Part shown: positions 39,570 through 64,000 of the stretch, in pieces
Position numbering within the stretch: position 1 is the first letter of the stretch
How the letters are laid out: every line of letters starts with the position of its first letter
Source of the DNA: Antedon bifida
Lineage: Eukaryota; Echinodermata; Crinoidea; Comatulida; Antedonidae
NCBI GenBank assembly: GCA_963402885.1
Contig: OY727094.1
Span: forward strand, 16,556,501 to 16,620,500
Direction: 5' to 3'
Length of the DNA: 64,000 bases
Made by a program: the position numbers and the translations under genes
The notes under the pieces: model-generated
What the model saw: the letters and a program-made list of their open reading frames with translations, nothing else
The model's database searches: none
What the model was told of the DNA's origin: nothing

Positions 39570-40268
39570 CATCATGTTTGACACAGTTCATTAAAATAGA
39601 TAGTCCAACCAACATAATATAAGAGTTAAAAACAATACTGTGTTTGATACACTTTATTAAATAGAAAGCCACAGATAAACCAACATAATATAAGAGTTAA
39701 AAACAATACTGTATTTGATACACTTTATTAAATAGAAAGCCACAGATAAACCAACATAATATAAGAGTTCAAAACAATACTGTATTTGATACACTTTATT
39801 AAATAGAAAGCCACAGATAAACCAACATAATATAAGAGTTAAAAACAATACTGTATTTGATACACTTTATTAAATAGAAAGCCACAGATAAACCAACATG
39901 ATATAACAGGTATAAATTAATACTGTATTTGATACACTTTATTAAATAGAAAGCCATAGATAAACCAACATGATATAACAGGTATAAAACAATACTGTAG
40001 AATGTATTTGATACTTTATTAATTAGAAAGCCACACATAAACCAACATGATATAACAGGTATAAAACAATACTGTAGAATGTATTTGATACTTTATTAAT
40101 TAGAAAGGAACAAATAAACCAACATGATATAACAGGAATAAAACAATACTGTATTTGATACACTTTATTAAATAGAAAGCCATAGATAAACCAACATGAT
40201 ATAACAGGTATAAAACAATACTGTAGAATGTATTTGATACTTTATTAATTAGAAAGGAACAAATAAAT
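39570..40268. repeat. Minisatellite, 71-bp unit, about 9-10 copies
   Basis: AACAATACTG recurs at 39631, 39702 and 39773, giving a period of 71. Units contain TTTGATACACTTTATTAAAT, GAAAGCCACAGATAAACCAA and CATAATATAAGAG. Later copies (from about 39900) shift to CATGATATAACAGGTATAAA and carry small insertions. Translations of the array (repeated YLIKCIKYSI-type peptide) are not genes. Confidence 0.85.
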
Positions 40269-40976: not shown

Positions 40977-43900
40977 CTGTGTCTTAACATTTATCACTGG
41001 TGAACACAGAATAATGAGACAAATATAGACAGCACTATGAAATAGCAAGATGTGTCTTAACATTTATCACTGGTGAACACAGAATAATGAGACAAATATA
41101 GACAGCACTATGAAATAGCAAGATGTGTCTTAACATTTATCACTGGTGAACACAGAATAATGAGACAAATATAGACAGCACTATGAAATAGCAAGATGTG
41201 TCTTAACATTTATCACTGGTGGACACAGAATAATGAGACAAATATAGACAGCACTATGAAATAGCAAGATGTGTCTTAACATTTATCACTGGTGAACACA
41301 GAATAATGAGACAAATATAGACAGCACTATGAAATAGCAAGATGTGTCTTAACATTTATCACTGGTGAACACAGAATAATGAGACAAATATAGACAGCAC
41401 TGTGAAATATCAAGATGTGTCTTAACATTTATCACTGGTGAACACAGAATAATGAGACAAATATAAACAGCACTATGAAATAGCAAGATGTGTCTTAACA
41501 TTTATCACTGGTGGACACAGAATAATGAAACAAAAATGAACAGCACTATGAAATATCAAGATGTGTCTTAACATTTATCACTGGTGAACACAGAATAATG
41601 AGACAAATATAAACAGCACTATGAAATAGCAAGATGTGTCTTAACATTTATCACTGGTGAATACAGAATAATGAGACAAATATAGACAGCACTATGAAAT
41701 AGCAAGATGTGTCTTAACATTTATCACTGGTGAACACAGAATAATGAGACAAATATAGACAGCACTATGAAATATCAAGATGTGTCTTAACATTTATCAA
41801 TGGTGAACACAGAATAATGAGACAAATATAGACAGCACTATGAAATAGCAAGATGTGTCTTAACATTTATCACTGGTGAACATAGAATAATGAGACAAAT
41901 ATAGACAGCACTATGAAATAGCAAGATGTGTCTTAACATTTATCACTGGTGAACACAGAATAATGAGACAAATATAGACAGCACTATGAAATAGCAAGAT
42001 GTGTCTTAACATTTATCACTGGTGAACATAGAATAATGAGACAAATATAGACAGCACTATGAAATAGCAAGATGTGTCTTAACATTTATCACTGGTGGAC
42101 ACAGAATAATGAGACAAATATAGACAGCACTATGAAATAGCAAGATGTGCCTTAACATTTATCACTGGTGGACACAGAATAATGAGACAAATATAGACAG
42201 CACTATGAAATAGCAAGATGTGTCTTAACATTTATCACTGGTGAACACAGAATAATGAGACAAATATAGACAGCACTATGAAATAGCAAGATGTGTCTTA
42301 ACATTTATCACTGGTGGACAGAGAATAATGAGACAAATATAGACAGCACTATGAAATAGCAAGATGTGTCTTAACATTTATCACTGGTGGACACAGAATA
42401 ATGAGACAAATATAGACAGCACTATGAAATAGCAAGATGTGTCTTAACATTTATCACTGGTGGAAACAGAATAATGAGACAAATATAGACAGCACTATGA
42501 AATATCAAGATGTGTCTTAACATTTATCACTGGTGGAAACAGAATAATGAGACAAATATAGACAGCACTATGAAATAGCAAGATGTGTCTGAACATTTAT
42601 CACTGGTGGAAACAGAATAATGAGACAAATATAGACAGCACTATGAAATAGCAAGATGTGTCTTAACATTTATCAATGGTGGACACAGAATAATGAGACA
42701 AATATAGACAGCACTATGAAATAGCAAGATGTGTCTTAACATTTATCACTGGTGAACACAGAATAATGAGACAAATATAGACAGCACTATGAAATAGCAA
42801 GATGTGTCTTAACATTTATCACTGGTGGACATAGCATAATGAGACAAACATAGACAGCACTATGAAATATCAAGATGTGTCTTTTAACATTTATCACTGG
42901 TGAACACAGAATAATGAGACAAATATAGACAGCACTATGAAATAGCAAGATGTGTCTTAACATTTATCACTGGTGGACACAGAATAATGAGACAAATATA
43001 GACAGCACTATGAAATAGCAAGATGTGTCTTAACATTTATCACTGGTGGACACAGAATAATGAGACAAATATAGACAGCACTATGAAATAGCAAGATGTG
43101 TCTTAACATTTATCACTGGTGGACACAGAATAATGAGACAAATATAGACAGCACTATGAAATAGCAAGATGTGTCTTAACATTTATCACTGGTTAACACA
43201 GAATAATGAGACAAATATAGACAGCACTATGAAATAGCAAGATGTGTCTGAACATTTATCACTGGTGGACACAGAATAATGAGACAAATATAGACAGCAC
43301 TATGAAATATCAAGATGTGTCTTAACATTTATCACTGGTTAACACAGAATAATGAGACAAATATAGACAGCACTATGAAATAGCAAGATGTGTCTGAACA
43401 TTTATCACTGGTGGACACAGAATAATGAGACAAATATAGACAGCACTATGAAATATCAAGATGTGTCTTAACATTTATCAATGGTGGACACAGAATAATG
43501 AGACAAATATAGACATCACTATGAAATATCAAGATGTGTCTTAACATTTATCAATGGTGGACACAGAATAATGAGACAAATATAGACAGCACTATGAAAT
43601 ATCAAGATGTGTCTTAACATTTATCAATGGTGGACACAGAATAATGAGACAAATATAGACAGCACTATGAAATAGCAAGATGTGTCTTAACATTTATCAC
43701 TGGTGGACACAGAATAATGAGACAAATATAGACAGCACTATGAAATATCAAGATGTGTCTTAACATTTATCACTGGTGGAAACAGAATAATGAGACAAAT
43801 ATAGACAGCACTATGAAATAGCAAGATGTGTCTGAACATTTATCACTGGTGGAAACAGAATAATGAGACAAATATAGACAGCATTATGAAATAGCAAGAT

Positions 43901-44399
43901 GTGTCTTAACATTTATCACTGGTGAACACAGAATAATGAGACAAATATAGATAGCACTATGAAATATCAAGATGTGTCTTAACATTTATCCCTGGTGGAC
44001 ACAGAATAATGAGACAAATATAGACAGCACTATGAAATATCAAGATGTGTCTTAACATTTATCCCTGGTGAACACAGAATAATGAGACAAATATAGACAG
44101 CACAATGAAATAGCAAGATGTGTCTGAACATTTATCACTGGTGAACACAGAATAATGAGACAAATATAGACAGCACTATGAAATAGCAAGATGTGTCTGA
44201 ACATTTATCAATGGTGAACACAGAATAATGAGACAAATATAGACAGCACTATGAAATAGCAAGATGTGTCTGAACATTTATCACTGGTGGACACAGAATA
44301 ATGAGACAAATATAGACAGCACTATGAAATAGCAAGATGTGTCTTAACATTTATCACTGGTAGACACAGAGAATAATGAGACAAATATAGACAGCACAT
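40977..44399. repeat. Large minisatellite, 73-bp unit, about 47 copies
   Basis: The unit reads GATGTGTCTTAACATTTATC, ACTGGTGAACACAGAATAAT, GAGACAAATATAGACAGCAC, TATGAAATAGCAA. Spacing is 73 bp throughout, with very few length changes, so copies are nearly identical. Variants recur at a few sites: GAACAC / GGACAC / GGAAAC, CTTAAC / CTGAAC, and AATAGC / AATATC. The same variant combinations reappear in neighbouring units, suggesting block-wise amplification. The unit is not a multiple of 3 and no frame stays open. Confidence 0.95.
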
Positions 44400-46082
44400 G
44401 ATAGACTGAAGAATAAACTTTGACACAACAAAGCAGCAATTTTATCTTATTTGTATCATGTTTGTTTCTTGTTATCCTGAATTGTTAATTTTGTATAGAT
44501 TTTCATTTTGTATGATTTACCATTTCAACTATTTTTTACTATTGTGAAACTTTACTTCCAATTCTGCCATGTGCTATGACATTTTAATAAAAGCATCTTA
44601 TACTACAGATGCATATTGATTTTTCTTTTTGATCATGTCACATGGTGAATAAATTAATCAATTAAAATGTTTATTTATTTATGTACTAACTACTATATTT
44701 TACTCATCAATTAACTTAACTGCAAAATGAATTTAATGATTTTATGTGATTGTATAGTCACAGACAGCAAAGCTCAAAATGTGCAAATTACATAATAGTC
44801 AATTGTTTGTCTGTCTGTATTGAAGGAAGTTCAATAACATTGTACTTTGTGTCATACAGTAGCTACACTCACTCACACCCTGCAAAATAAATATGAACAG
44901 TACAAAGTAATCTTTTAAAATGTTTGACCAATTAACAACACAATTCTTAAAAACGCCCTCTAGGCTAAAACACAAAATAATGAAACATTTTTGTCTGTAC
45001 TTTATCAATCAAAGAAGAGATTTCCCCACTTTCTGTATCCCTTTGTCCATTGCAACTCTCTTAAATATTCTTTTTTTAATGTCATTCCAGCCATTTGGAA
45101 CAATCTCTCAATTCACATTCGTAACTTTGTTAAATTAATTTAAATTTGCAACCTATCAATTTCTTTCAGCAAAACTGTAAATAACAATTGAATTGAAAAA
45201 CTTCCGTCTAATTTAGATATGTGAATAAGCTTTAAGAACCCTTTGTACAATTTAAGTAAAACAGTATTAGATTAGGCTCAACACTGTAGGGAGAGAATCC
45301 ATAAAAAGGTAATATTTACACTTTAACCTTTGTATTGATTACAAATATAGAACAGCAAAGATGACAAATAAGCTTACATTGGTGGCAGTATTTATAAGAA
45401 AGAAGTGATCTCAAATGTTGGGGCACTGGTGGCAGTATTTGTAATCTGAGTTTAAATTTATTGATTTAATTTATTTCATTAAGTGAATTTTGTTTCACTT
45501 CACAAAGTGTATTTTATCATTTCATTTACAGTGAAGGAGGCAAAATCTAGATGATAAAGTTACAAATTTAAACTTTTATGATCATTAATGATGTATAAGA
45601 AAAAAAGGTAATGTATACAAATACTGTAATTATCATTTTGAAAACACACTCTGTATTGACTTATTTACTACGTTAATAAATATTTATATAAAATTTGACA
45701 AATTCTATACATGAGTGACATGATTTTCTAGATAGAGAATAAAAGAGTTAAACTAATATTATTAAAATCAGTCCAGATTACATGATCAAACCTCAATAAG
45801 CTGACAAAGGCTATGAAAATATGTGAGGAGTTAAATCACTCTTTATATGGTATATTAAAATGAGATAAAAGACTGAATTCACTAAGATTGTGCAATGGTC
45901 AGGTGACAAGATATTTAAATTCATTTTGTATCATCAATTCATATTCCATCAGACTGTTGAATGATGTACACATTGTGACTTGCTTTTTTATGTTATTTTT
46001 CTTGATTTACAGTTTTTATTATGTTCATATACTAAGGTACAGTTTTAAATATAGTGTTTTTAAATATGTTACAATAAAATGT
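44400..46082. other. Non-coding stretch with a LINE scrap
   Basis: An AATAAA word followed by AGCATC near 44587 could be a polyadenylation signal of an unseen transcript or of a repeat. Apart from the LINE fragment near 44.9-45.15 kb, nothing is recognised. Confidence 0.25.
44900..45145 (+). pseudogene. C-terminal scrap of a CR1/L2/Jockey-type LINE
   Basis: One plus-strand frame ending near 45139 reads SFFNVIPAIWNNLSIHIRNF and VKLI before a stop. This matches the '..F....P.IWNNLP..IR...' segment near the end of Jockey-superfamily reverse transcriptases. Upstream sequence is frameshifted, and only the last part is recognisable. Confidence 0.4.
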
Positions 46083-47323: not shown

Positions 47324-47861
47324 GTACCTGGGAAATTACTGCAATCATTACTTATTAATTAATCCGAATTTTAAAAATGTTTGCTTTTTTATTGTGGGCC
47401 TACATTTTAATCTTTTTATTATTGCCTCTTGCCATTTTTATCGCTTTCTTGATAAACTTGTTCATTGTTTATGTTTTGTTGTCGTTCAATTTTATACCTC
47501 CATGGTTCAATCAACAATTAAACAACAAAAACCTTAACTAATATATTTTTATATTATTTTTTACACAGACTACCTATTTTTATTGAAAAATTAATTGTGT
47601 GTATTTTTACCTAAATTGCATTCTTAGAAAAATATTGTATGCCTATTTTACTTCTTCATATGTTATCGATTTATAGAAAATAGTACACCTTGTGGGGGTG
47701 AGCACATTTCTGTCGTTGTTGACGTTTTATTATTTACCATGCTAATTTTGACCAATGACAAGCGACAGTTCAAGTAATCCAATCAAATTACACTTTATTG
47801 CGGCCATATAGTTAGTAGGTCTACTAAATTAATTAAATCTAGGAAATTTCGTTGAAAGATG
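47324..47861. other. Non-coding, nothing recognised
   Basis: AT-rich sequence. No supported feature. Confidence 0.3.
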
Positions 47862-48165
47862 TATTTTCCCCCTGAAAAATAATGTTAAACTTTTTTTTGT
47901 TGACTAGGCCTATTTAATGTCTTATAATAGTTATCCAACTTTGGATAAATTGGATCTAAAAAAATGTATTTAAGCAAAAATGGTCAAATTGGCCAATGGA
48001 TTTTTAGTTGAATTTAACCATTTATTATGTTATTTTTTAAGTGAAAACTTATTTTTTTTTCTACGGAAGTGATTAATTTTATTAAAACTACAAAATAACC
48101 TATTCAAAGTCTGATTTGATTAATCTTTATTTTTCATGTTATTGGGGGACAATACATCTTTTAGC
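47862..48165 (+). repeat. Dispersed repeat family, copy 2
   Basis: Same-strand relative of 6055-6415, sharing CCCCCTGAAAAA, ATAGTTATCCA, TCTACGGAAGTGATTA, CTACAAAATAAC and GGACAATACA in order, with numerous small indels. Confidence 0.7.
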
Positions 48166-48699
48166 AAGACAAAAATTACCAATGATTTTAGTTAAAGTAG
48201 GCCTACTAGTATAACAGAACAGACATAAAGTTTGCATTTGTTTCCTAAAATAGCATTTACACAATCATAGGCCATCTTTACAGGCCTACTGTAATTTTCA
48301 ACTCACTATCACTTCTAAATACACTTTGCTAACAAATAGTATATCAACACTTAAATAAACGGAGAGTGTTTGAATGTCTGATAACTGTTATCACTTACGT
48401 TACAAAATATTGGTGGCGTGCTTGCCGCTTTGTTGTGTGACATGACAAGTTCAGTTGTGAAATTAAGGGCTAATGAGGCAGACCTGTTAAATGAAGTTGT
48501 TTATTAATATATTTGTAAATTGTTTTCCTTGTTTACAGGAATGTTTTTCAATTGTAGTTGGTTATTATATTTTGGACTAAATTTGATTTATGGACTGGTA
48601 TGTGATATCTATATCTATATGTACTAAAATATAAAACGATCAGTGACTGTTGTTGAGGTTAATGCTTACTGTGAATGACTGCGTAGTGTAGGCCACAAT
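48166..48699. other. Non-coding, nothing recognised
   Basis: AT-rich sequence with scattered AGGCCTA words. Confidence 0.3.
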
Positions 48700-48816
48700 C
48701 TCATTGGCCCGTATTTCATGACTATCTTTTGCCGATTTTGATACTGGTTTAGTCCAGGACTAAAGATTGTCCAGACTAAATCCAGAGATAGTGTCCAGTC
48801 ATTAATACGGACCTTA
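48700..48816. mobile_element. Small MITE with CCCGTATT-type ends
   Basis: GGCCCGTATTTCATGACTATC at the left and GATAGTGTCCAGTCATTAAT, ACGGACC at the right are imperfect inverted repeats. The centre has a GGTTTAGTCC / GGACTAAA palindrome. The end resembles the Harbinger-like element at 38.6 kb (CCCGTATTC). Target duplication is unclear. Confidence 0.5.
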
Positions 48817-48842
48817 CGGGTCTCAGAGTAGACGTAGCAAAT

Positions 48843-49765
48843 ATTAGAATTATTATATCAAATCAAATAAACATTTATTTCTTCTAATCAAAGTAAGTTT
48901 ACCCGTTAGTTGTCTGCGTCTTTGTATGTGCGTCTTTGTATGTGCGTACGTTAAGTTATGTCAAATATATATCTTTTTTTATTTTGTCCAATATACATAT
49001 TAAATATTATCATTAATTGGTCATTACAAAATATAATTTAAAATCTGGTTATTAAAAATTGTATTATATAAATATATTATTGAAAAATTGAATGAAGGGT
49101 TCCGGTGTGCTCTGAATGAATAAATTATCAAGCAACAATGGACTGTGGAACAAACGACACAGCGTTAGGCTCGTTATCTAACGCCACGGCCGTGGCGTAG
49201 TAAGTGCCTAGTTCATACGCAAGGCGTATGCTACGCAATGCGTACGCCATGGCTTACGCCCATACGTGTAAACAGGCTCTAACCTACGGTAACTCCGTAG
49301 CGAGTCAAGGACCGACATTTCAATGTTGTATGGCCTACATTTATGACAAATGTGCTTGTAGATTAATGGATGCTTACGGATTAATATAGCCTAAAATCTC
49401 ATTTTGTCTGTGATTATAATTAACAAAAATTAGAATTATTATATCAAATCCAATATTTAAAGTTTACCCATCAGTTGTCTGCGTCTTTATATGTGCGTGT
49501 GTCAAATTATATACAAATAAATAAAATCATATTAGTAAATATATTATAATATAATATATTTGTTTTATATATTTTTTCCAATATACATAACAAATACATT
49601 ATTTTCATTAATACCAAATATATAGAAACAAATATAAAACCTGGTTAAACATTGTATTATTTAAAATTGTTTCAAAATATACTATAAGAAATAATGAAGT
49701 GATCCGGGAGTGCTCTCTATGAATAATAATATAGCAACAATGAACTGTGTATAACAAACGACTTA
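48843..49765. repeat. Duplicated segment (about 320 bp) interrupted by a GC-richer insert
   Basis: Copy A (48843-49164) and copy B (49425-49765) share TTAGAATTATTATATCAAAT, GTTGTCTGCGTCTTT, CCAATATACATA and GTGCTCT.TGAATAA in order. Between them, 49160-49390 is a GC-richer insert with ACGCCACGGCCGTGGCGT (49181-49198), a perfect 18-bp palindrome, and several ACGCAAGGCGTATG-type words. It is probably a MITE. Confidence 0.55.
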
Positions 49766-50645
49766 TTAAAGATGTAGGTAACCTGTACGGATTATGGATG
49801 CAATAACAGTATCTTCTTTGTGACGCACATGATACATTTTGTAGATTGCGTTTTACCAAGAGAACACAAACATCCTGCTTAAATTCAAGTACAGACATCA
49901 ATTCAAATCCTCCTATGCACTGCCCTTCTTGTGATTTTCCAAATATAGGCCTAGTTGTTTCTCGACAAAAGAAATAACACTAACATTTAGGCCTACAGGC
50001 CGATACATACAACATTGTTAGAATTTAAAAATTAAATTTTCCGAAGAAAAATAGAGAAGCTTCTCAAATTTAAATTATGTCTACACCAACCAAGCTTTTA
50101 ATCAACTTTGCAAGTGATTAATTTGCATATTTTAACATTGTTCCTTTTTTTTTTCTTAATAATTATATACATTTATTTTGTACAATTGCTTTGCATGAAT
50201 GATCAGTACATAATTGAAATAGTATAACACTAATCATAATTATACAATTTTGTAGAGAAATCGTCTACTTGAAAAAGTTAGCATTACGTAATCAAGGTAA
50301 TCAACCAAAGAATTATTTTAAATCCGGTGGTTTCAGTAGAGTAGGCAGGCTGTACAGACTATACGTAAACGTATTAATCTAATTCCCACATTGCGCCCCG
50401 TACATTTAAAACTTTTTACAATGGTCTGTTAGAAAGAATTTAAACTGGACGACTTTAATTTTTATATACAAGATCATTATATATGACGTATGTACAAGTA
50501 TAAATGTCATTATTCATTATAATATTTATATCCATATAAGGCCTTTCCTTCAAGTTCAAGGTGCTACTAGTTACGTATTGCTGCGCATGCCTAAATGTAC
50601 ATCACAAGTCAAGAGACCAAGTCTTCGAGTCAAATACTATCACCT
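49766..50645. other. Probable 3' UTR and downstream region of the VWDE-like gene
   Basis: On the minus strand the stop of the EGF gene is at 50646. A minus-strand AATAAA (plus TTTATT) lies near 50172-50178, about 470 bp downstream, and could be the polyadenylation signal. No coding sequence was seen. Confidence 0.3.
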
Positions 50646-51645
50646 CTAAATATCTCTCGTTCTTTTATTACCGGTATTGCCGTCTGTAGCTCTGGCTTTG
50701 GCGAGTTGATCGGCTCTCACACAGTAAGCGCCATTGCGTCCATGTCGACATGGTTCAACACACCGTCTGCCATACAAACATGAACGTTCGCAAATGGTTT
50801 TTGGCAAGAAGTCCCACTGTAGCCTTAAAGGGCATGCGCACACATCTGGTTTGATACATACACCATTGTTACGACATCCATTACTGCAAACGGCTTTCTG
50901 ACAATGTCTGCCTCGCCAGCCAGAAGCACATGAGCACACATCAGGGGATACACAGCGTCCACCAATAAGACACCGCGGTTCACAGAGGGGAATTTCGCAT
51001 CGTCTACCAATGAACCCATGTGGGCATGAACACGTATTCTTGCGTACACATCTTCCACCGTTCAAGCACGTCTCATCACATACACCTGTCTCACAATATC
51101 TTCCATGATATCCACGTGAGCAAAGACATTGCGAAGGATTGGCACAAACACCACCATTCATACAATTTGTTTGACAGAGTGCTTGTGAGCAAGTAGGTCC
51201 TGAATACCCAGCAGGACATACACACGTATCAGGGTCCGAGCAATAACCTCCGTTTTGGCAGAAACGACAAGTCACTTTATCACAGAATTTTCCCGTGTAT
51301 CCTTCGTAGCAACTGCACTCGCCCGGTGCAACACACACTCCATTTTGACAGTCAGGTCTACAAACAGCTATTCTACAACCACATTCTGTCCAACCTTCTT
51401 CGCATATACATTTATTTCCCCCAGTGTACCGCATGTTCTTTGGACATCTCACAGAGCAGCGATGTACTTCAACGCATGATACGCCATCACCAGAATATCC
51501 AGCAGAACAAGGTCCACACCTGAAGCTAAGAGATCCGTCGGTTATTGTTTCGGAGCAGACGACACGATCAAAGCACGGGTTAGGATCACACGGAGTGACA
51601 GACTGCTCACACAGTATGCCTGTATAACCAGCGTCGCATCTACAG
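50646..51645 (-). CDS. VWDE-like EGF-repeat protein, 3' part of the coding exon
   Basis: This continuous minus-strand frame encodes cysteine-rich EGF repeats and ends at a stop at 50646. In order: the second half of an EGF split by the LINE (RCDAGYTGILCE); a thrombospondin-type EGF (CDPNPCFDRVVC ... CSAGYSGDGVSC); an atypical module; then about seven short EGFs of the C-x3-C-x5-C type (QNGVCVAPGECSCYEGYTG onward). This layout fits the C-terminus of von Willebrand factor D and EGF domain proteins, secreted extracellular proteins. Near 50798-50830 two opposite 1-base shifts replace the expected GYSGTSC by RLQWDFL, and the last EGF lacks about four residues. The frame is open beyond the cysteine-rich part for about 22 residues (ending KRTRDI). 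Tenascin or other multi-EGF families are possible alternatives. Confidence 0.65.
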
Positions 51646-54486
51646 TTTCAGTTTCAGTTTCAGTTTTTATTTTTCCAATATAATAATATAAGTGTAATGA
51701 ATATATGCAAAAATGGAAGGATGACCAAAAAAGAGCAAATCTCGTACAGTATTTGGCCACCTTAACAAAATAATTAATACATGATACAAACATAATTGAA
51801 GCACAGGACGAGACAATACTAGCTAAACATGTTGGCATATGAACTCAAAGATAGTGCGATAAAACCAAAAGAAGCAAAAGAACAATGTAAATGTAAACAT
51901 ATTTGTAACACTCATTGATAAGTTAAGAGCAAATTATTTTTATAAAACTTTTTAAATACTTTGACAGATGATGAATTACGAATAGAAGCATCAATACTGT
52001 TTCATAAAATTGGACCATGTCCTCTGATAGTGTTTCTACCCATATCGGTAACAAAATTATAAAGACGATAAGTATCAAAGGACCTGATGCCATAATTATG
52101 AACTGAGTTTACTCTAACAAAATAATTAGAAAAGTTAGCTGGTAATAAATTATTCTTAAATTTGTACATGAAAACACCTTTTGATAACTTATGAATATCA
52201 TACACAGTTAAGTTGTTAAGACTAGCAAATAATGGTGGTGAATGCTCAAGGAATTGAGAATTTGTGCATAAACGCATTATGCGCTTTTGTTTGCGATAAA
52301 CAGTTTCAAGGCGACAGTTATTGTGGTCAGCCCAAATCAAGCTGCAGTATTGAATATGAGGAAGGACTAGAGTTTTGTATAAGGATGATAGAACATTGAC
52401 ATGTAAAATTGGTTTTAGCCTAAAAAGAATACCAGAATATTTTGAAACTAAGTTTGCAATATGGATTGTATGTTGATTCCAGGTTAAGCATTCGTCCATT
52501 ATTACACCAAGAAATTTACAACTAGTTACACGAGAGATGTTATTATTATCAATGAAAATGTTAAGGTCATTGTAAACACGGTTACTATATCTGTTCTTAA
52601 AAATCATATAATTAGTTTTATTAGCATTAAGCGATAACTTATTTGCTTTAAACCAACTCGAGATAGTCGAGAGATCGGAATTAACATTATCAACTAGACG
52701 GTTTAAAACATTATCTGAAATTAAAAGGTTAGTGTCATCTGCATATAAAATAAGATTGGAGTGTTTACAGATGTTTGCTAAATCATTAATGTAAATAATA
52801 AAGAGTAGCGGGCCTAAAATTGAGCCCTGTGGAACACCACAACAAATGTTTAAAGAAGAAGAACTATGATAATTAAAAGAGATATATTGCTTTCTATCCG
52901 CCCGGTAACTTCTGAACCAATCAAAAGCAACACCACGTATACCATAATGCTGTAGTTTAGACAGGAGAATGTCGTGATTAACGGTGTCAAAGGCCTTTGA
53001 AAGGTCCAGAAATATCCCAAGAACATGCTTTTTCTTATCTAATTCAGAGATTATTTTATCATATGCTTGTAAAACAGCCATTTCAGTAGACATGTTTGGG
53101 CGGAAACCAAATTGGTTCTCATGCAATAAATTAAATCGAGAAAAATAATTATAGAGTCTTTTATGAATTATGCGTTCTAAAACTTTGGAGAAAACGGGCA
53201 GTACCGAGATGGGCCTATAATTGCTAAATTTATCAGTCTCACCATGTTTAAAGACGGGAATTATCTTGGCAATTTTCAGCTTCTCCGGGACAATACCGGT
53301 AGCTAGTGATAAATTAAAAATATGAACAAGTGGAGATGCTATTAATTCCCCAACAGATTTAATAATATCTGGTTTAATGTCATCAAAACCGCTGCTAGCA
53401 CCAGATTTCAGATTTCTGAATATTGTGAGTACTTCATCTTTATCAGTTGGTAAAACAAACAGAGAGTTAACGGGTGATTTTATGTTATTTATAAAATAAT
53501 TAAAAGTAATATCAGATTGAGGAATTTTACGCAGGTATTCAGGACCAATGTTGACAAAGTATTTATTAAAGTTATCAGCAATAATTTGAGAATCAGATAT
53601 ATGTATATCATTTATTTTAAAAAATGATGATATGTGTTTATTGTTTTGTCTACCCATAATGTTATTGAGAACATTCCAAGTCTGTTTTGAATTAAATTTT
53701 GTTTCCTCAAGCTTTTCAGCATAATATTGCTGTTTAGAAATCCTGATTAAAGAAGTAAGTTTATTACGATAATTAACATAAGATGTTTTGTTGGATTCAG
53801 TAGGGTTACTTGCATACTTTTTGTATAATTTATCTTTTCGAGTTATTGATTTTAGGATCGCCGAAGTAATCCAAGGCTTTTGAGGAATACAACGACGCCG
53901 GGAATTGTTGTTGGAATGTTTAGAGATGGGAAAATGTACATTGTAGACCTCTGTGAATTTATTGATGAAAACATTATATGCATGGTCAGAAGAATCAAGA
54001 TCAGTAATACAACTCCAATCAACCAAGCTTAAATTTTCCTCCTTAATTTCAAGAATATCTTTGTCCATATGCTTCACCCCTGTCTCCAAGTCCGCCATAT
54101 CAGTTCGAATGCCTTTAATGTCTGCATTCACCTTGCTCATTTGAGACGCTGGCGCGTCAAACCGGGAGTTCATATCAGCGTCCAATTTGGTTAACAATGC
54201 ATGCAATGTATGCATGTTTACCTCATTGTCTACAGGTGGCTGGTCCGGTTGGCTACTGCGGGTTCGTCTACTACTGGCCTCGTTGGTAGTCATGGTTTTA
54301 AAATTAGGAAAACCAGTAAAATAGAGCAAAATAAATCATAAAATATATAATTTGTTGAGACTGTGCGTCTATAATTCTCAATATAGTCGATAAATAGTAA
54401 TTAAAGTCCTGTTTGGTCGGATTTAGGACACTTTCCGCAGCACTATTTTATCCGTGTCCGCTCTCCATGAAGGTTGCAATACCACA
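51646..54486 (-). mobile_element. CR1/L2-type LINE inserted in the EGF coding exon
   Basis: A 2.84-kb minus-strand element lies between two copies of TACAG (51641-51645 and 54487-54491), the likely target duplication. Its 3' end carries a short tail of CTGAAA repeats (plus-strand TTTCAG, 51646-51665), typical of Jockey-superfamily LINEs. Host EGF coding sequence is continuous on both sides. The element has a 5' leader (54294-54486), one long ORF (start 54293) and a 3' UTR of about 240 bp. It encodes RT but lacks an endonuclease, so it is not a full-length autonomous copy. Confidence 0.9.
51912..54293 (-). pseudogene. LINE protein: ORF1-like N-terminus fused to reverse transcriptase
   Basis: From ATG at 54293 the first 88 or so residues look like the start of a LINE ORF1 protein (polar head RRTRSSQPDQPP, then a heptad-like coiled coil with MNSRFDAPASQMSKVNADIK). 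The sequence then passes without a break into the region that follows the endonuclease domain in ORF2 (YNVHFPISKH, PWITSAILKSITRKDKLYKK), and the RT domain. RT motifs are intact: NYRPISVLPVFSKVLERI (358-374), FLDLSKAFDTVNHD (428-441), GVPQGSILGPLLF (487-499), and YADD (517-520). The endonuclease is absent. A TGA at 52004-52002 replaces the conserved W of 'GP.LWN'; reading past it, the frame continues 28 codons (NSIDASIRNSSSVKVFKKFY) to a TGA at 51914-51912. So this copy is an internal-deletion chimera with one nonsense change. Confidence 0.85.
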
Positions 54487-54896
54487 TACAGAAGAAGATG
54501 GAATCAATTGACAGAGAACACGAGCCATGATGACAAGGATTCGGTGTGCAGACGTCACCAGATAGATCGTACGGTGGTATACTTTCACAATGATCACCTT
54601 TGAAATCATCTGGACAGATACAGACGACATCAGTTTCTTTATATTCTTTGTCTTCTTTGCATTTCCCGCCGTTTTGACAAGGGCACTCTATAACTGTCAC
54701 ATCAATAGTGGCGGCCTCTGTAGCACCGCACCTGTCAGTCGCCCTCACGGGTATAACTACATGATTCGCTTTTAACGGTTGCCACAGTAACTTGCCATCT
54801 TCTGACAAACTGATACCATAGTCATCTTCTTTCCAAATAAGGTCGTAAACTAAGACGTCACCGTCTGGGTCATTGTACATTGTTCCTGGTGTGCAT
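54487..54896 (-). CDS. VWDE-like EGF-repeat protein, 5' part of the split exon
   Basis: Minus-strand frame from a probable AG acceptor at 54898-54897 (ACTACAAG). It encodes CTPGTMYNDPDGDVLVYDLI and on through LLWQPLKANHVVIPVRATDR, a beta-sandwich (cadherin-like or putative Ig-like) module as found before the EGFs of VWDE-type proteins. Then come one complete EGF (CPCQNGGKCKEDKE ... CICPDDFKGDHC) and the start of another (DVCTPNPCHHGSCSLSIDSI). The frame runs into the LINE after SIFFC. The next exon upstream must lie beyond the 87-bp satellite, outside the window. The acceptor is plausible but not proved. Confidence 0.65.
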
Positions 54897-55080
54897 CTTG
54901 TAGTAAAATATGACAACTTGAATCAGGTTCACGTGCAGGTTCTTTGAGTTCATTTTAAGACAATATCATACACTAGTTTGTAAAGTGAACCACCTCACAA
55001 TTATTGTCAAGAGATCGATTTTGTTTACGATAATTTGTAATTATAAGCTCACAAGAACTGTAAAGTTAATTGTCATCTGC
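54897..55080. other. Short intronic spacer between the EGF exon and the satellite
   Basis: 184 bp of AT-rich sequence; contains the proposed 3' splice site region of the minus-strand EGF exon and then the first satellite unit begins. Confidence 0.4.
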
Positions 55081-58000
55081 GTACTTGATTGCCACACAGT
55101 CCCACATGTACACAGGGGAATGGCGGTCGTTTACATGATATACAGGAATGGTAAGGCCAGTGTGTACTTGATTGCCACACAGTCCCACATGTACACAGGG
55201 GAATGGCGGTCGTTTACGTACATGATATACAGGAATGGTAAGGCCAGTGCGTACTTGATTGCCACATAGTCCTACACGTACACAGGGGCATGGCGGTCGT
55301 TTATGTACATGATACAGGAATGGTAAGGCCAGTCCGTACTTGATTGCCACACAGTCCCACACGTACACAGGGGAATGGCGGTCGTTTATGTACATAATGT
55401 ACAGGAATGGTAAGGCCAGTGTGTACTTGATTGCCACACAGTCCCACACGTACACAGGGGAATGGCGGTCGTTTATGTACATGATGTACAGGAATGGTAA
55501 GGCCAGTGCGTACTTGATTGCCACACAGTACCACACGTCCACAGGGGAATGGCGGTCGTTTATGTACATGATGTACAGGAATGGTAAGGCCAGTGCGTAC
55601 TTGATTGCCACACAGTCCCACACGTACACAGGGCATGGCGGTCGTTTACGTACATGATGTGCAGGAATGGTAAGGCCAGTGCGTACTAGATTGCCACACA
55701 GTCCCACACGTACACAGGGGCATGGCAGTCGTTACGTTTATGTACATGATGTACAGGAATGGTAAGGCCAGTGCGTACTTGATTGCCACACAGTCCCACA
55801 CGTACACAGGGGCATGGCGGTCGTTTACGTACATGATGTACAGGAATGGTAAGGCCAGTGCGTACTTGATTGCCACACAGTCCCACACGTACATAGGGGA
55901 ATGGCAGTCGTTTACGTACATGATGTACAGGAATGGTAAGGCCAGTGTGTACTTGATTGCCACACAGTCCCACAGGTACACAGGGGAATGGCAGTCGTTT
56001 ATGTACATGATGTACAGGAATGGTAAGGCCTTGCGTACTTGATTGCCACAGTGCCACACGTACACAGGGGAATGGCGGTCGTTTACGTACATGATGTACA
56101 GGAATGGTAAGGCAAGTGCGTACTTGATTACCACACAGTCCCACACGTACACAGGGGAATGGCGGTCGTTTACGTACATGATGTACAGGAATGGTAAGGC
56201 CAGTGCGTACTAGATTGCCACACAGTCCCACACGTACACAGGGGAATGGCAGTCGTTTACGTACATGATGTACAGGAATGGTAAGGCCAGTGCGTATCAG
56301 ATTGCCACACAGTCCCACACGTACATAGGGGAATGGCGGTCGTTTACGTACATGATGTACAGGAATGCCATGGTAAGGCCAGTGCGTCCTAGATTGCCAC
56401 ACAGTCCCACACGTACATAGGGGAATGGCGGTCGTTTACGTACATGATGTACAGGAATGCCATGGTAAGGCCAGTGCGTACTAGATTACCACACAGTCCC
56501 ACACGTACACAGGGGAATGGCAGTCGTTTATGTACATGATGTACAGGAATGGTAAGGCCAGTGCGTACTTGATTGCCACACAGTCCCACACGTACACAGG
56601 GGCATGGCGGTCGTTTACGTACATGATGTACAGGAATGGTAAGGCCAGTGCGTACTTGATTGCCACACAGTCCCACACGTACACAGGGGCATGGCGGTCG
56701 TTTACGTACATGATGTACAGGAATGGTAAGGCCAGTGCGTATTAGATTGCCACACAGTCCCACACGTACACAGGGGCATGGCGGTCGTTTATGTACATGA
56801 TGTACAGGAATGGTAAGGCCAGTGTGTACTTGATTGCCACACAGTCTCACACGTATACAGGGGCATGGCGGTCGATTACGTACATGATATACAGGAATGG
56901 TAAGACCAGTGCGTACTAGATTGCCACACAGTCCCTCACGTACACAGGGGCATGGCGGTCGTTTACGTACATGATGTACAGGAATGGTAAGGCCAGTGTG
57001 TACTTGATTGCCACACAGTCCCACACGTACACAGGGGCATGGCGGTCGTTTACGTACATGATGTACAGGAATGGTAAGGCCAGTGCGTACTCGATTGCCA
57101 CACAGTCCCACACGTACACAGGGGAATGGCGGTTGTTTACGTACATGATGTACAGGAATGGTAAGGCCAGTGCGTACTTGATTGCCACAGTGCCACATGT
57201 ACACAGGGGAATGGCGGTCGTTTACGTACATGATGTACAGGAATGGTAAGGCAAGTGCGTACTTGATTACCACACAGTCCCACACGTACACAGGGGAATG
57301 GCGGTCGTTTACGTACATGATGTACAGGAATGGTAAGGCCAGTGCGTACTAGATTGCCACACAGTCCCACACGTACACAGGGGAATAGCAGTCGTTTACG
57401 TACATGATGTACAGGAATGGTAAGGCCAGTGCGTATCAGATTGTCACACAGTCCCACACGTACACAGGGGAATGGCAGTCGTTTATGTACATGATGTATA
57501 GGAATGGTAAGCCCAGTGCGTACTCGATTGCCACACAGCTCCACACGTACACAGGGGAATGGCGGTCGTTTACGTACATGATGTACAGGAATGGTAAGGC
57601 CAGTGCGTACTTGATTGCCACACAGCCCCACACGTACACAGGGGAATGGCAGTCGTTTACGTACATGATGTACAGGAATGGTAAGTCCAGTGCGTACTTG
57701 ATTGCCACACAGCCCCACACGTACACAGGGGAATGGCGGTCGTTTACGTACATGATGTACAGGAATGGTAAGGCCAGTGCGTACTTGATTGCCACACAGT
57801 CCCACACGTACACAGGGGAATGGCGGTCGTTTATGTACATGATGTACAGGAATGGTAAGGCCAGTGCGTACTTGATTGCCACACAGTCCCACACGTACAC
57901 AGGGGAATGGCGGTCGTTTATGTACATGATGTACAGGAATGGTAAGGCCAGTGCGTACTTGATTGTCACACAGTCCCACACGTACACAGGGGAATGGCGG

Positions 58001-61000
58001 TCGTTTATGTACATGATGTACAGGAATGGTAAGGCCAGTGCGTACTTGATTGTCACACAGTCCCACACGTACACAGGGGAATGGCGGTCGTTTATGTACA
58101 TGATGTACAGGAATGGTAAGGCCAGTGTGTACTTGATTGCCACACAGTCCCACACGTACACAGGGGAATGGCAGTCGTTTATGTACATGATGTACAGGAA
58201 TGGTAAGGCCAGTGCGTACTTGATTGCCACACAGTCCCACACGTACACAGGGGAATGGTGGTCTTTTACGTACATGATGTACATGAATGGTAAGGCCAGT
58301 GTGTACTTGATTGCCACACGGTCCCACACGTACACAGGGGAATGGCGGTCGTTTATGTACATGATGTACAGGAATGGTAAGGCCAGTGTGTACTTGATTG
58401 CCACACAGTCCCACACGTACACAGGGGAATGGCGGTCGTTTACGTTCATGATGTACAGGAATGGTAAGGCCAGTGCGTACTTGATTGCCACACAGTCCCA
58501 CACGTACACAGGGGAATGGCGGTCGTTTATGTACATGATGTACAGGAATGGTAAGGCCAGTGCGTACTTGATTGCCACACAGTCCCACACGTACACAGGG
58601 GAATGGCGGTCGTTTATGTACATGATGTACAGGAATGGTAAGGCCAGTGCGTACTTGATTGCCACACAGTCCCACACGTACACAAGGGCATGGCGGTCGT
58701 TTACGTACATGATGTACAAGAATGGTAAGGCCAGTGCGTATTAGATTGCCACACAGTCCCACACGTACACAGGGGCATGGCGGTCGTTTATGTACATGAT
58801 GTACAGGAATGGTAAGGCCAGTGTATACTTGATTGCCACACAGTCTCACACGTATACAGGGGCATGGCGGTCGATTACGTACATGATATACAGGAATGGT
58901 AAGGCCAGTGCGTACTAGATTGCCACACAGTCCCTCACGTACACAGGGGCATGGCGGTCGTTTACGTACACGATGTACAGGAATGGTAAGGCCAGTGTGT
59001 ACTTGATTGCCACACAGTCCCACACGTACACAGGGGCATGGCGGTCGTTTACGTACATGATGTACAGGAATGGTAATGCCAGTGCGTACTCGATTGCCAC
59101 ACAGTCCCACACGTACACAGGGGAATGGCGGTTGTTTACGTACATGATGTACAGGAATGGTAAGGCCAGTGCGTACTTGATTGCCACACAGTCCCACACG
59201 TACACAGGGGAATGGCGGTCGTTTACGTACATGATGTACAGGAATGGTAAGGCCAGTGCGTACTTGATTGCCACACAGTCCCACACGTACACAGGGGAAT
59301 GGCAGTCGTTTACGTACATGATGTACAGGAATGGTAAGTCCAGTGCGTACTTGATTGCCACACAGCCCCACACGTACACAGGGGAATGGCGGTCGTTTAC
59401 GTACATGATGTACAGGAATGGTAAGGCCAGTGCGTACTTGATTGCCACACAGTCCCACACGTACACAGGGGAATGGCGGTCGTTTATGTACATGATGTAC
59501 AGGAATGGTAAGGCCAGTGCGTACTTGATTGCCACACAGTCCCACACGTACACAGGGGAATGGCGGTCGTTTATGTACATGATGTACAGGAATGGTAAGG
59601 CCAGTGCGTACTTGATTGTCACACAGTCCCACACGTACACAGGGGAATGGCGGTCGTTTATGTACATGATGTACAGGAATGGTAAGGCCAGTGCGTACTT
59701 GATTGTCACACAGTCCCACACGTACACAGGGGAATGGCGGTCGTTTATGTACATGATGTACAGGAATGGTAAGGCCAGTGTGTACTTGATTGCCACACAG
59801 TCCCACACGTACACAGGGGAATGGCAGTCGTTTATGTACATGATGTACAGGAATGGTAAGGCCAGTGCGTACTTGATTGCCACACAGTCCCACACGTACA
59901 CAGGGGAATGGTGGTCTTTTACGTACATGATGTACATGAATGGTAAGGCCAGTGTGTACTTGATTGCCACACGGTCCCACACGTACACAGGGGAATGGCG
60001 GTCGTTTATGTACATGATGTACAGGAATGGTAAGGCCAGTGTGTACTTGATTGCCACACAGTCCCACACGTACACAGGGGAATGGCGGTCGTTTACGTTC
60101 ATGATGTACAGGAATGGTAAGGCCAGTGCGTACTTGATTGCCACACAGTCCCACACCTACACAGGGGAATGGCGGTCGTTTATGTACATGATGTACAGGA
60201 ATGGTAAGGCCAGTGCGTACTTGATTGCCACACAGTCCCACACGTACACAGGGGAATGGCGGTCGTTTATGTACATGATGTACAGGAATGGTAAGGCCAG
60301 TGCGTACTTGATTGCCACACAGTCCCACACGTACACAGGGCATGGCGGTCGTTTACGTACATGATGTACAGGAATGGTAAGGCCAGTGCGTATTAGATTG
60401 CCACACAGTCCCACATGTACACAGGGGAAAGGCGGTCATTTATGTACATGATGTACAGGAATGGTAAGGCCAGTGCGTACTTGATTGCCACACAGTCCCA
60501 CACGTACACAAGGGCATGGCGGTCGTTTACGTACATGATGTACAGGAATGGTAAGGCCAGTGCGTATTAGATTGCCACACAGTCCCACACGTACACAGGG
60601 GCATGGCGGTCGTTTATGTACATGATGTACAGGAATGGTAAGGCCAGTGTGTACTTGATTGCCACACAGTCTCACACGTATACAGGGGCATGGCGGTCGA
60701 TTACGTACATGATACACAGGAATGGTAAGGCCAGTGCGTACTAGATTGCCACACAGTCCCTCACGTACACAGGGGCATGGCGGTCGTTTACGTACATGAT
60801 GTACAGAAATGGTAAGGCCAGTGTGTACTTGATTGCCACACAGTCCCACACGTACACAGGGGCATGGCGGTCGTTTACGTACATGATGTACAGGAATGGT
60901 AATGCCAGTGCGTACTCGATTGCCACACAGTCCCACACGTACACAGGGGAATGGCGGTTGTTTACATACATGATGTACAGGAATGGTAAGGCCAGTGCGT

Positions 61001-64000
61001 ACATGAATGCCACACAGTCCCACACGTACACTGGGGAATGGCGGTCGTTCATGTACATGATGTACATGAATGGTAAGGCCAGTGTGTACTTGATTGCCAC
61101 ACAGTCCCACACGTACACAGGGAAATGGAGGTCGTTTATGTACATGATGTACAGGAATGGTAAGGCCAGTGCGTACTTGATTGCCACACAGTCCCACACG
61201 TACACAGGGGAATGGCGGTCGTTTACGTACATGATGTACAGGAATGGTAAAGCCAGTGCGTACTTGATTGCCACACAGTCTCACACGTACACAGGGGAAT
61301 GGCGGTCGTTTACGTTCATGATGTACAGGAATGGTAAGGCCAGTGTGTACTTGATTGCCACACAGTCCCACACGTACACAGGGGAATGGCGGTCGTTTAT
61401 GTACATGATGTACAGGAATGGTAAGGCCAGTGCGTACTTGATTGCCACACAGTCCCACACGTACACTGGGGAATGGCGGTCGTTTATGTACATGATGTAC
61501 AGGAATGGTAAGGCCAGTGCGTACTTGATTGTCACACAGTCCCACACGTACACAGGGGAATGGCGGTCGTTTATGTACATGATGTACAGGAATGGTAAGG
61601 CCAGTGCGTACTTGATTGTCACACAGTCCCACACGTACACAGGGGAATGGCGGTCGTTTATGTACATGATGTACAGGAATGGTAAGGCCAGTGTGTACTT
61701 GATTGCCACACAGTCCCACACGTACACAGGGGAATGGCAGTCGTTTATGTACATGATGTACAGGAATGGTAAGGCCAGTGCGTACTTGATTGCCACACAG
61801 TCCCACACGTACACAGGGGAATGGTGGTCTTTTACGTACATGATGTACATGAATGGTAAGGCCAGTGTGTACTTGATTGCCACACGGTCCCACACGTACA
61901 CAGGGGAATGGCGGTCGTTTATGTACATGATGTACAGGAATGGTAAGGCCAGTGTGTACTTGATTGCCACACAGTCCCACACGTACACAGGGGAATGGCG
62001 GTCGTTTACGTTCATGATGTACAGGAATGGTAAGGCCAGTGCGTACTTGATTGCCACACAGTCCCACACGTACACAGGGGAATGGCGGTCGTTTATGTAC
62101 ATGATGTACAGGAATGGTAAGGCCAGTGCGTACTTGATTGCCACACAGTCCCACACGTACACAGGGGAATGGCGGTCGTTTATGTACATGATGTACAGGA
62201 ATGGTAAGGCCAGTGCGTACTTGATTGCCACACAGTCCCACACGTACACAGGGCATGGCGGTCGTTTACGTACATGATGTACAGGAATGGTAAGGCCAGT
62301 GCGTATTAGATTGCCACACAGTCCCACATGTACACAGGGGAATGGCGGTCATTTATGTACATGATGTACAGGAATGGTAAGGCCAGTGCGTACTTGATTG
62401 CCACACAGTCCCACACGTACACAAGGGCATGGCGGTCGTTTACGTACATGATGTACAGGAATGGTAAGGCCAGTGCGTATTAGATTGCCACACAGTCCCA
62501 CACGTACACAGGGGCATGGCGGTCGTTTATGTACATGATGTACAGGAATGGTAAGGCCAGTGTGTACTTGATTGCCACACAGTCTCACACGTACACAGGG
62601 GAATGGCGGTCGTTTATGTACATGATGTACAGGAATGGTAAGGCCAGTGTGTACTTGATTGCCACACAGTTCCACACGTACACAGGGGAATGGCGGTCGT
62701 TTACGTACATGATGTACAGGAATGGTAAGGCCAGTGCGTACTAGATTGCCACACAGTCCCACACGTACACAGGGGAATAGCAGTCGTTTACGTACACGAT
62801 GTACAGGAATGGTAAGGCCAGTGCGTATCAGATTGTCACACAGTCCCACACGTACACAGGGGAATGGCAGTCGTTTATGTACATGATGTATAGGAATGGT
62901 AAGCCCAGTGCGTACTCGATTGCCACACAGCTCCACACGTACACAGGGGAATGGCGGTCGTTTACGTACATGATGTACAGGAATGGTAAGGCCAGTGCGT
63001 ACTTGATTGCCACACAGCCCCACACGTACACAGGGGAATGGCAGTCGTTTACGTACATGATGTACAGGAATGGTAAGTCCAGTGCGTACTTGATTGCCAC
63101 ACAGCCCCACACGTACACAGGGGAATGGCGGTCGTTTACGTACATGATGTACAGGAATGGTAAGGCCAGTGCGTACTTGATTGCCACACAGTCCCACACG
63201 TACACAGGGGAATGGCGGTCGTTTATGTACATGATGTACAGGAATGGTAAGGCCAGTGCGTACTTGATTGCCACACAGTCCCACACGTACACAGGGGAAT
63301 GGCGGTCGTTTATGTACATGATGTACAGGAATGGTAAGGCCAGTGCGTACTTGATTGTCACACAGTCCCACACGTACACAGGGGAATGGCGGTCGTTTAT
63401 GTACATGATGTACAGGAATGGTAAGGCCAGTGCGTACTTGATTGTCACACAGTCCCACACGTACACAGGGGAATGGCGGTCGTTTATGTACATGATGTAC
63501 AGGAATGGTAAGGCCAGTGTGTACTTGATTGCCACACAGTCCCACACGTACACAGGGGAATGGCAGTCGTTTATGTACATGATGTACAGGAATGGTAAGG
63601 CCAGTGCGTACTTGATTGCCACACAGTCCCACACGTACACAGGGGAATGGTGGTCTTTTACGTACATGATGTACATGAATGGTAAGGCCAGTGTGTACTT
63701 GATTGCCACACGGTCCCACACGTACACAGGGGAATGGCGGTCGTTTATGTACATGATGTACAGGAATGGTAAGGCCAGTGTGTACTTGATTGCCACACAG
63801 TCCCACACGTACACAGGGGAATGGCGGTCGTTTACGTTCATGATGTACAGGAATGGTAAGGCCAGTGCGTACTTGATTGCCACACAGTCCCACACGTACA
63901 CAGGGGAATGGCGGTCGTTTATGTACATGATGTACAGGAATGGTAAGGCCAGTGCGTACTTGATTGCCACACAGTCCCACACGTACACAGGGGAATGGCG
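55081..64000. repeat. Satellite array, 87-bp unit, about 102 copies, with higher-order structure
   Basis: The unit reads GTACTTGATTGCCACACAGT, CCCACACGTACACAGGGGAA, TGGCGGTCGTTTATGTACAT, GATGTACAGGAATGGTAAGG, CCAGTGC. The period is 87 bp with rare 1-4 bp length changes. Diagnostic variants repeat in order: the rare GGTGGTCTTTTACG unit begins at 58261, 59914, 61827 and 63653, spacings of 1653, 1913 and 1826, or 19, 22 and 21 units (the last two minus 1 bp). The array therefore contains multi-unit blocks that were copied as a whole. It continues past the window end. Because 87 is 29 codons and the unit has few stops, frames of 400-1068 codons stay open on both strands (for example 57137-60343 minus); these are by-products. 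Confidence 0.97.

Follow-up and report, generated by a model that had tools for sequence, protein, structure and literature searches.

A LINE nested in an amplified, decayed retrocopy of a probable VWDE-like gene in the crinoid Antedon bifida

Retrocopies spread by segmental duplication are described for SEPTIN14P-CICP in apes, whose copies lie near pericentromeric or subtelomeric regions (PMC13015009), and LCORL retrocopies in equids are described as amplified and expressed (PMC10249811). The locus analysed here resembles both systems in that one RNA-derived insertion was followed by many DNA-duplicated copies, but it differs from them in that the unit on contig C7 later gained a LINE, which produced filled and empty paralogues, and in that all nine C7 units seen are disabled. 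Amplified retrocopies already have precedents in these accounts, and the processes in the C7 history are all known ones. For the LINE, the nearest comparisons are zebrafish ZfL2-1, which produces 5-bp duplications (PMC4245944), and the SpIRE, a spliced human L1 (PMC5860796). The element resembles CR1/L2-type LINEs in its reverse transcriptase (RT) domain, its short tandem 3' tail and its 5-bp duplication, but lacks an endonuclease and most of ORF1. Like the SpIRE it is internally deleted and genomic, whereas its joint is a microhomology with no splice junction, and the deletion runs from ORF1 to ORF2 (PMC5860796).

The window is the whole stretch of 64,000 nucleotides that was analysed (C7:16556501-16620500), and it was compared with a genome of 315.6 Mb in 27 contigs. 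A first-pass annotation had taken the sequence interrupted by the LINE for a coding EGF exon. We found twelve fused C1 exons followed by poly(A) in its place:

50145..54871, minus strand: processed retrocopy of the probable VWDE-like gene on C1, 5'-truncated and interrupted by the LINE, with 12 C1 exon blocks fused, 11 introns absent and EGF hits in Pfam
54877..54887, minus strand: 5' target-site duplication of the retrocopy, AGGAACAATGT, an exact 11-bp repeat
50135..50145, minus strand: 3' target-site duplication of the retrocopy, AGGAACAATGT, whose first A is also counted in the A tract

The retrocopy starts at 54871, which falls inside the gene, and the gene's 5' part is absent. Its 3' end carries AATAAA (50177-50172) and then A10 (50154-50145), compared with A5 at C1, and its downstream half matched Pfam EGF_TEN with an E of 1.4e-62. 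The locus thus shows the features by which a processed pseudogene is recognized, namely missing introns, poly(A) after a cleavage signal, a target-site duplication and lesions. A tblastn query taken from the C-terminal EGF sequence had no match in about 39 kb outside the window, differing upstream exons being out of reach of that query. An intron acceptor near 54896 was considered and rejected, that stretch being flank outside the retrocopy.

At the C1 locus the same sequence is divided into 12 blocks. For all 11 introns GT and AG were found no more than 8 bases from where the blocks end, some with two candidates, and the blocks joined with ends so chosen read as one 456-codon open frame containing complete EGFs. 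A VWD piece (E 1.2e-7) lies on the same strand about 5 kb upstream of the EGF blocks, with an EGF-like stretch below Pfam cut-offs between them, and it would belong to one transcript with the EGF exons. We call the C1 gene VWDE-like because the VWD piece and the EGFs match the description of VWDE, in a paper on planarian Equinox, as VWD plus EGF repeats (PMC9117669); this assignment is probable. The C1 locus shares with VWDE/Equinox (PMC9117669) the combination of VWD and arrayed EGFs, here on one strand, but differs in that a weak Big_9-like match, below the cut-off, precedes the EGFs, and orthology is putative. The 3' end block of the retrocopy is 98.5% identical to C1 (1.5% difference), which fits poorly with a source allele other than the C1 reference.

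A genome search with the downstream EGF half gave at least 20 matches, a lower bound, made up of nine C7 units (one split in two) and ten short C1 blocks. At least nine retrocopy units therefore lie at C7:11.8-17.1 Mb. Seven of them carry the LINE at an identical base and with an identical duplication (the window copy, L030, L031, L034, L035, L036 and L042), and two, L057 and L058, are LINE-free. The surroundings of the units are also in common:

55078..64000, no strand: 87-bp satellite array beside the retrocopy, running on to C7:16645092, about 33.5 kb overall
47797..50134, no strand: 3' flank in common with L034, the only unit retrieved that far, and part of the amplified unit

Arrays of the 87-bp satellite adjoin all eight other units, six LINE-bearing and two LINE-free. 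Window positions 47797-51641 were 94.6% identical to C7:17110093-17113946, with the LINE at about 99%. A segmental duplication is defined as a block 1 kb or longer with an identity of 90% or more, and this block is one by that definition. The word AGGAACAATGT at the 5' end was kept in seven of the eight other units and deleted in L042, and five of the six further units with the LINE had the same sequence 3' of the A tract. Since the duplication word and the 3' sequence are common to the units, a single retroposition preceded the amplification. The six other short LINE copies had been candidates for independent insertions and were rejected as such, their flanks being duplicates.

Lesions in the parental frame were present in 9 of 9 units, the LINE-free ones included. 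For the window copy they are as follows:

50797..50850, minus strand: lesions of the window copy in EGF10, comprising a +1 shift, a stop in the parental frame and a -1 shift

Elsewhere we found a 16-bp deletion and a -1 shift in L030; a stop, a -1 shift and the loss of about 33 bases immediately after the LINE in L031; the same stop and a -1 shift in L034; a -1 shift in L035 and in L036; and a 91-base loss with a -1 shift in L042. Of the LINE-free units, L057 carries a stop and L058 a -1 shift. For this count, as for the alignment and the tree, L031 was masked over its first 70 downstream columns; the 2-base insertion in L035/L036 and a 68-base gap in L031, which came from slicing and masking, were not scored as lesions, and gaps reaching column 1291 were cut by trimming. 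Among coding changes variable between units, 6 of 52 were synonymous, somewhat under the neutral expectation of 0.26 obtained with the tree's kappa (p 0.017). Stops, frameshifts and mostly nonsynonymous changes show that the units are without evident purifying constraint, and plain neutral decay leaves the synonymous shortfall of 6/52 unexplained.

That the amplified retrocopies are functional, through an expressed product or as a source of small RNA acting on the C1 gene, and have been retained for that reason, is very unlikely. The expressed LCORL retrocopies of equids (PMC10249811), the nine copies and the unexplained synonymous shortage (6/52, p 0.017) speak for it, but every one of the nine units carries stops or frameshifts, and the satellite linkage offers a passive explanation.

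Changes fixed between C1 and the units behaved differently, 25 of 31 being synonymous, which is far above expectation for a decaying copy, so that the divergence of C1 from the units looks like that of a working gene. With so many of the fixed differences synonymous, the C1 reference allele seems not to have been the direct source of the retrocopy; what was copied, be it another allele or a functional paralogue that was not seen, would already have differed from it.

Within the retrocopy, the LINE has the following parts:

51646..54486, minus strand: internally deleted LINE, CR1/L2-like as judged by its tail, duplication length and RT similarity
52002..54335, minus strand: open frame of 777 aa, in which an N-terminal piece of ORF1 is fused in frame to post-endonuclease ORF2 with RVT_1
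54035..54038, minus strand: site of the 2154-bp internal deletion, with GAAA microhomology, placed by comparison with L032
51646..51667 (bounds approximate), minus strand: 3' tail of the LINE, with (TGAAAC) repeats

Its reverse transcriptase matched RVT_1 with an E of 3e-40, and no endonuclease match was obtained in it up to E 10. Endonuclease matches were obtained in L032 and in the positive control L003, which we take to be a CR1-like element and in which both RT and endonuclease matched. The window LINE was 26% identical to L003 over 620 aligned columns, and its clade was called as CR1/L2-like on sequence resemblance; the 5-bp duplication would fit an L2-type element. In contrast, the retrocopy has an 11-bp duplication and poly(A), which suggests that machinery other than that of the LINE may have inserted it.

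A genome search with the LINE 3' end gave 42 matches, for which 16 regions besides the window were retrieved and compared: six units with the LINE, two copies (on C13 and C10) and eight fragments that fall short of the internal junction. Outside the units, only L032 among these 16 regions spans the joint, and it is undeleted. L032, on C13, is 4998 bp long and contains ORF1, with a coiled coil judged by eye and a PHD-like finger below the cut-off, followed by endonuclease and RT; its ORF2 is broken by a stop. By comparison with L032, the 2154 bp missing from the window LINE lie between the ORF1 start and the endonuclease end, and the window LINE, without most of ORF1 and without endonuclease, is non-autonomous. 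The joint of the internal deletion is common to all seven unit LINEs, and the 777-aa frame is open in one of the seven, the window copy.

Searches with further parts of the locus gave little. In viral contigs scanned with the LINE protein, the LINE 3' end and the satellite unit no relative was found, and with a piece of the RT core a single weak locus turned up there (L001, 32% identity). Against genome contigs the same piece gave 20 loci, four of which were examined (L002-L005). Rfam returned nothing at gathering scores, and the sole NCBIfam match was a group II RT below the cut-off. A plasmid protein search gave 243 records, and the 15 of them that were listed were mostly annotated as group II intron RTs, and a phage protein search gave one unannotated record.

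The in-frame internal deletion that connects ORF1 and ORF2 might be taken for the mark of a spliced element, as in human SpIREs. The missing segment has no placement with both a GT start and an AG end, and the joint carries the 4-bp GAAA microhomology; a spliced origin is very unlikely.

At the point of insertion, the minus-strand EGF frame enters the LINE at 54486 and picks up again at 51640, and the LINE is flanked by a short repeat:

54487..54491, minus strand: 5' copy of the LINE target duplication, CTGTA (TACAG on the plus strand)
51641..51645, minus strand: 3' copy of the LINE target duplication, CTGTA (TACAG on the plus strand)

When the LINE and one CTGTA copy were removed, the sequence read ...SIDSIFFCRCDAGYTGILC..., with the EGF halves in frame and a normal cysteine spacing, exactly as the first-pass annotation had stated; with both copies kept the frame was shifted. 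The rejoined domain scored 29.5 bits to Pfam EGF (E 8.9e-7), while the separate halves reached at most 15.1 bits to any family. The repeat by itself is weak evidence of insertion, as 5 bp were reached in 270 of 2000 shuffles of 25-nt joints, and because such a repeat is not rare by chance the empty site was looked for elsewhere in the genome. This check on the LINE insertion, an empty site in related sequence, is the decisive one. The empty site was uninterrupted in L058 (TTCTTCTGTA|GATGCGACGC), in L057 (TTCTTCTGCA|GATGAGACGC) and in the C1 gene (CTTCTGTA|GATGCGACGC), in each case with a single copy of the duplication, and no LINE match was found in L057-L061. The proposed LINE insertion with target duplication into EGF sequence is thereby confirmed, and so is the existence of copies that read through without the LINE, namely L057, L058 and the C1 gene.

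What was built on that insertion fared less well. The first-pass annotation saw a functional EGF gene with a coding exon recently broken by a LINE, possibly a loss-of-function allele that is polymorphic. An in-frame empty site and the intact 777-aa frame of the window copy favour this, but it fails because the target is a processed retrocopy that is independently dead: introns are missing, poly(A) is present, the gene's 5' part is lacking and other lesions disable all nine units, LINE-free ones included. The multi-exon C1 gene and the empty C7 units contradict it as well, and a haplotype-specific loss-of-function allele does not agree with a single assembly in which seven of the nine paralogous units have the same insertion. 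We regard this account as scarcely credible. A dying gene copy was the nearest of the options offered, in view of the lesions in 9/9 units, although what is dying is a processed retrocopy. The question of rescue by splicing is largely moot since the locus is a retrocopy; the earlier statement that no rescue occurs was limited to the LINE's own donor and acceptor words, and a scan of the whole exon with a weight matrix predicted 668 donor/acceptor pairs that keep the frame open, the best 15 of which all skip EGF sequence.

Repeated independent insertions at one preferred site, which seven LINEs at the same base might suggest, are just as hard to credit, as the 2154-bp internal deletion is common to 7/7 (unless an unseen deleted source element supplied it) and the unit LINEs are 0.1-1.4% apart, closer than the 1.5-1.9% that separates them from L032 and L033 on other chromosomes, figures obtained after masking 48 bases at the start of the downstream part in L031 and 27 at the start of the upstream part in L042.

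We are therefore highly confident of a nested history made up of retroposition, satellite-linked amplification, one LINE insertion, decay and probable exchange, in which a working gene was probably not broken. As the structure shows, an mRNA of the VWDE-like, EGF-rich C1 gene was reverse-transcribed, and the copy, truncated at its 5' end and carrying poly(A), went in next to an 87-bp array; the enzyme responsible is presumed. The retrocopy unit then multiplied to nine or more copies on C7. The LINE, internally deleted beforehand or soon after its arrival, inserted into one unit with a 5-bp duplication, by target-primed reverse transcription; a single event is inferred because the site, the duplication and the internal deletion are identical. 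Further duplication and probable exchange between units would have left seven LINE-bearing and two empty, and all of them decay without evident constraint.

A tree of the nine units over 1291 columns, trimmed since the 3' ends of L035 and L036 diverge, was poorly resolved, with LINE-free L058 placed among LINE-bearing units at low support. A single LINE-bearing clade was absent from this tree but was not rejected (AU p 0.195). LINE-bearing L030 and LINE-free L057 agree at columns 646 and 649, with C1 states, and at column 678, with a derived state; column 1267 unites the window copy, L031 and LINE-free L058, and column 1252 adds L030. We read these groupings as exchange between units, which they do not prove. 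It is possible, and here we are tentative, that the nine units on C7 behave as an exchanging family in which conversion or unequal exchange shuffles LINE presence, point changes and deletions among satellite-linked dead retrocopies.

A single window can yield a convincing story of a broken gene, and a genome search turns the same bases into an amplified retrocopy. Filled and empty paralogues beside satellite arrays form a natural set in which the order of retroposition, amplification, LINE insertion and exchange can be studied neatly. If the units do form an exchanging family, one LINE insertion would have been spread or erased among them as a presence/absence marker.

In L032, the long relative of the unit LINE on C13 (C13:19174601-19184100), a PHD-like finger was found at the start of ORF2, 5' of the endonuclease, with an E-value of 0.0053, a match that falls short of the Pfam cut-off. 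CR1-like LINE frames were also present in L002 and L003, two contigs whose titles name Thermoprotei and Thermocrinis MAGs, and the element of L003, which served as the endonuclease and RT control, is one that we take to be CR1-like. The occurrence of LINE frames in these prokaryote-labelled contigs is probably due to animal contamination of the bins.

A further LINE lies immediately past the end of the 87-bp array (L048 5718-8962; C7 about 16.6455-16.6488 Mb), with putative ORF1-, endonuclease- and RT-like pieces recognised by reading its translations. Within the window, two overlapping transposase-like reading frames were observed at 16199-17673, presumably akin to a pogo/Tigger element, and two long tandem arrays are located near the retrocopy unit:

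39607-40267, long tandem array of 71/77-bp units
40978-44401, long tandem array of 73-bp units

Among the C7 units, only 6 of the 52 variable changes in coding columns were synonymous, a smaller share than the 0.26 expected under neutrality (p 0.017). The LINEs of L035 and L036 (C7:12.20 and 11.82 Mb) differed at only 3 of 2829 bases, pointing to a duplication much more recent than that of the other unit pairs.

When the intron-bearing C1 gene (C1:3995749-4005783), the probable VWDE-like source, was compared with the C7 retrocopies, 25 of the 31 fixed differences were synonymous, and its blocks were from 84.6% (gapped) to 100% identical to the window copy. Judged from sequence, the pattern of differences between C1 and C7 resembles what the copying of a divergent allele would leave.
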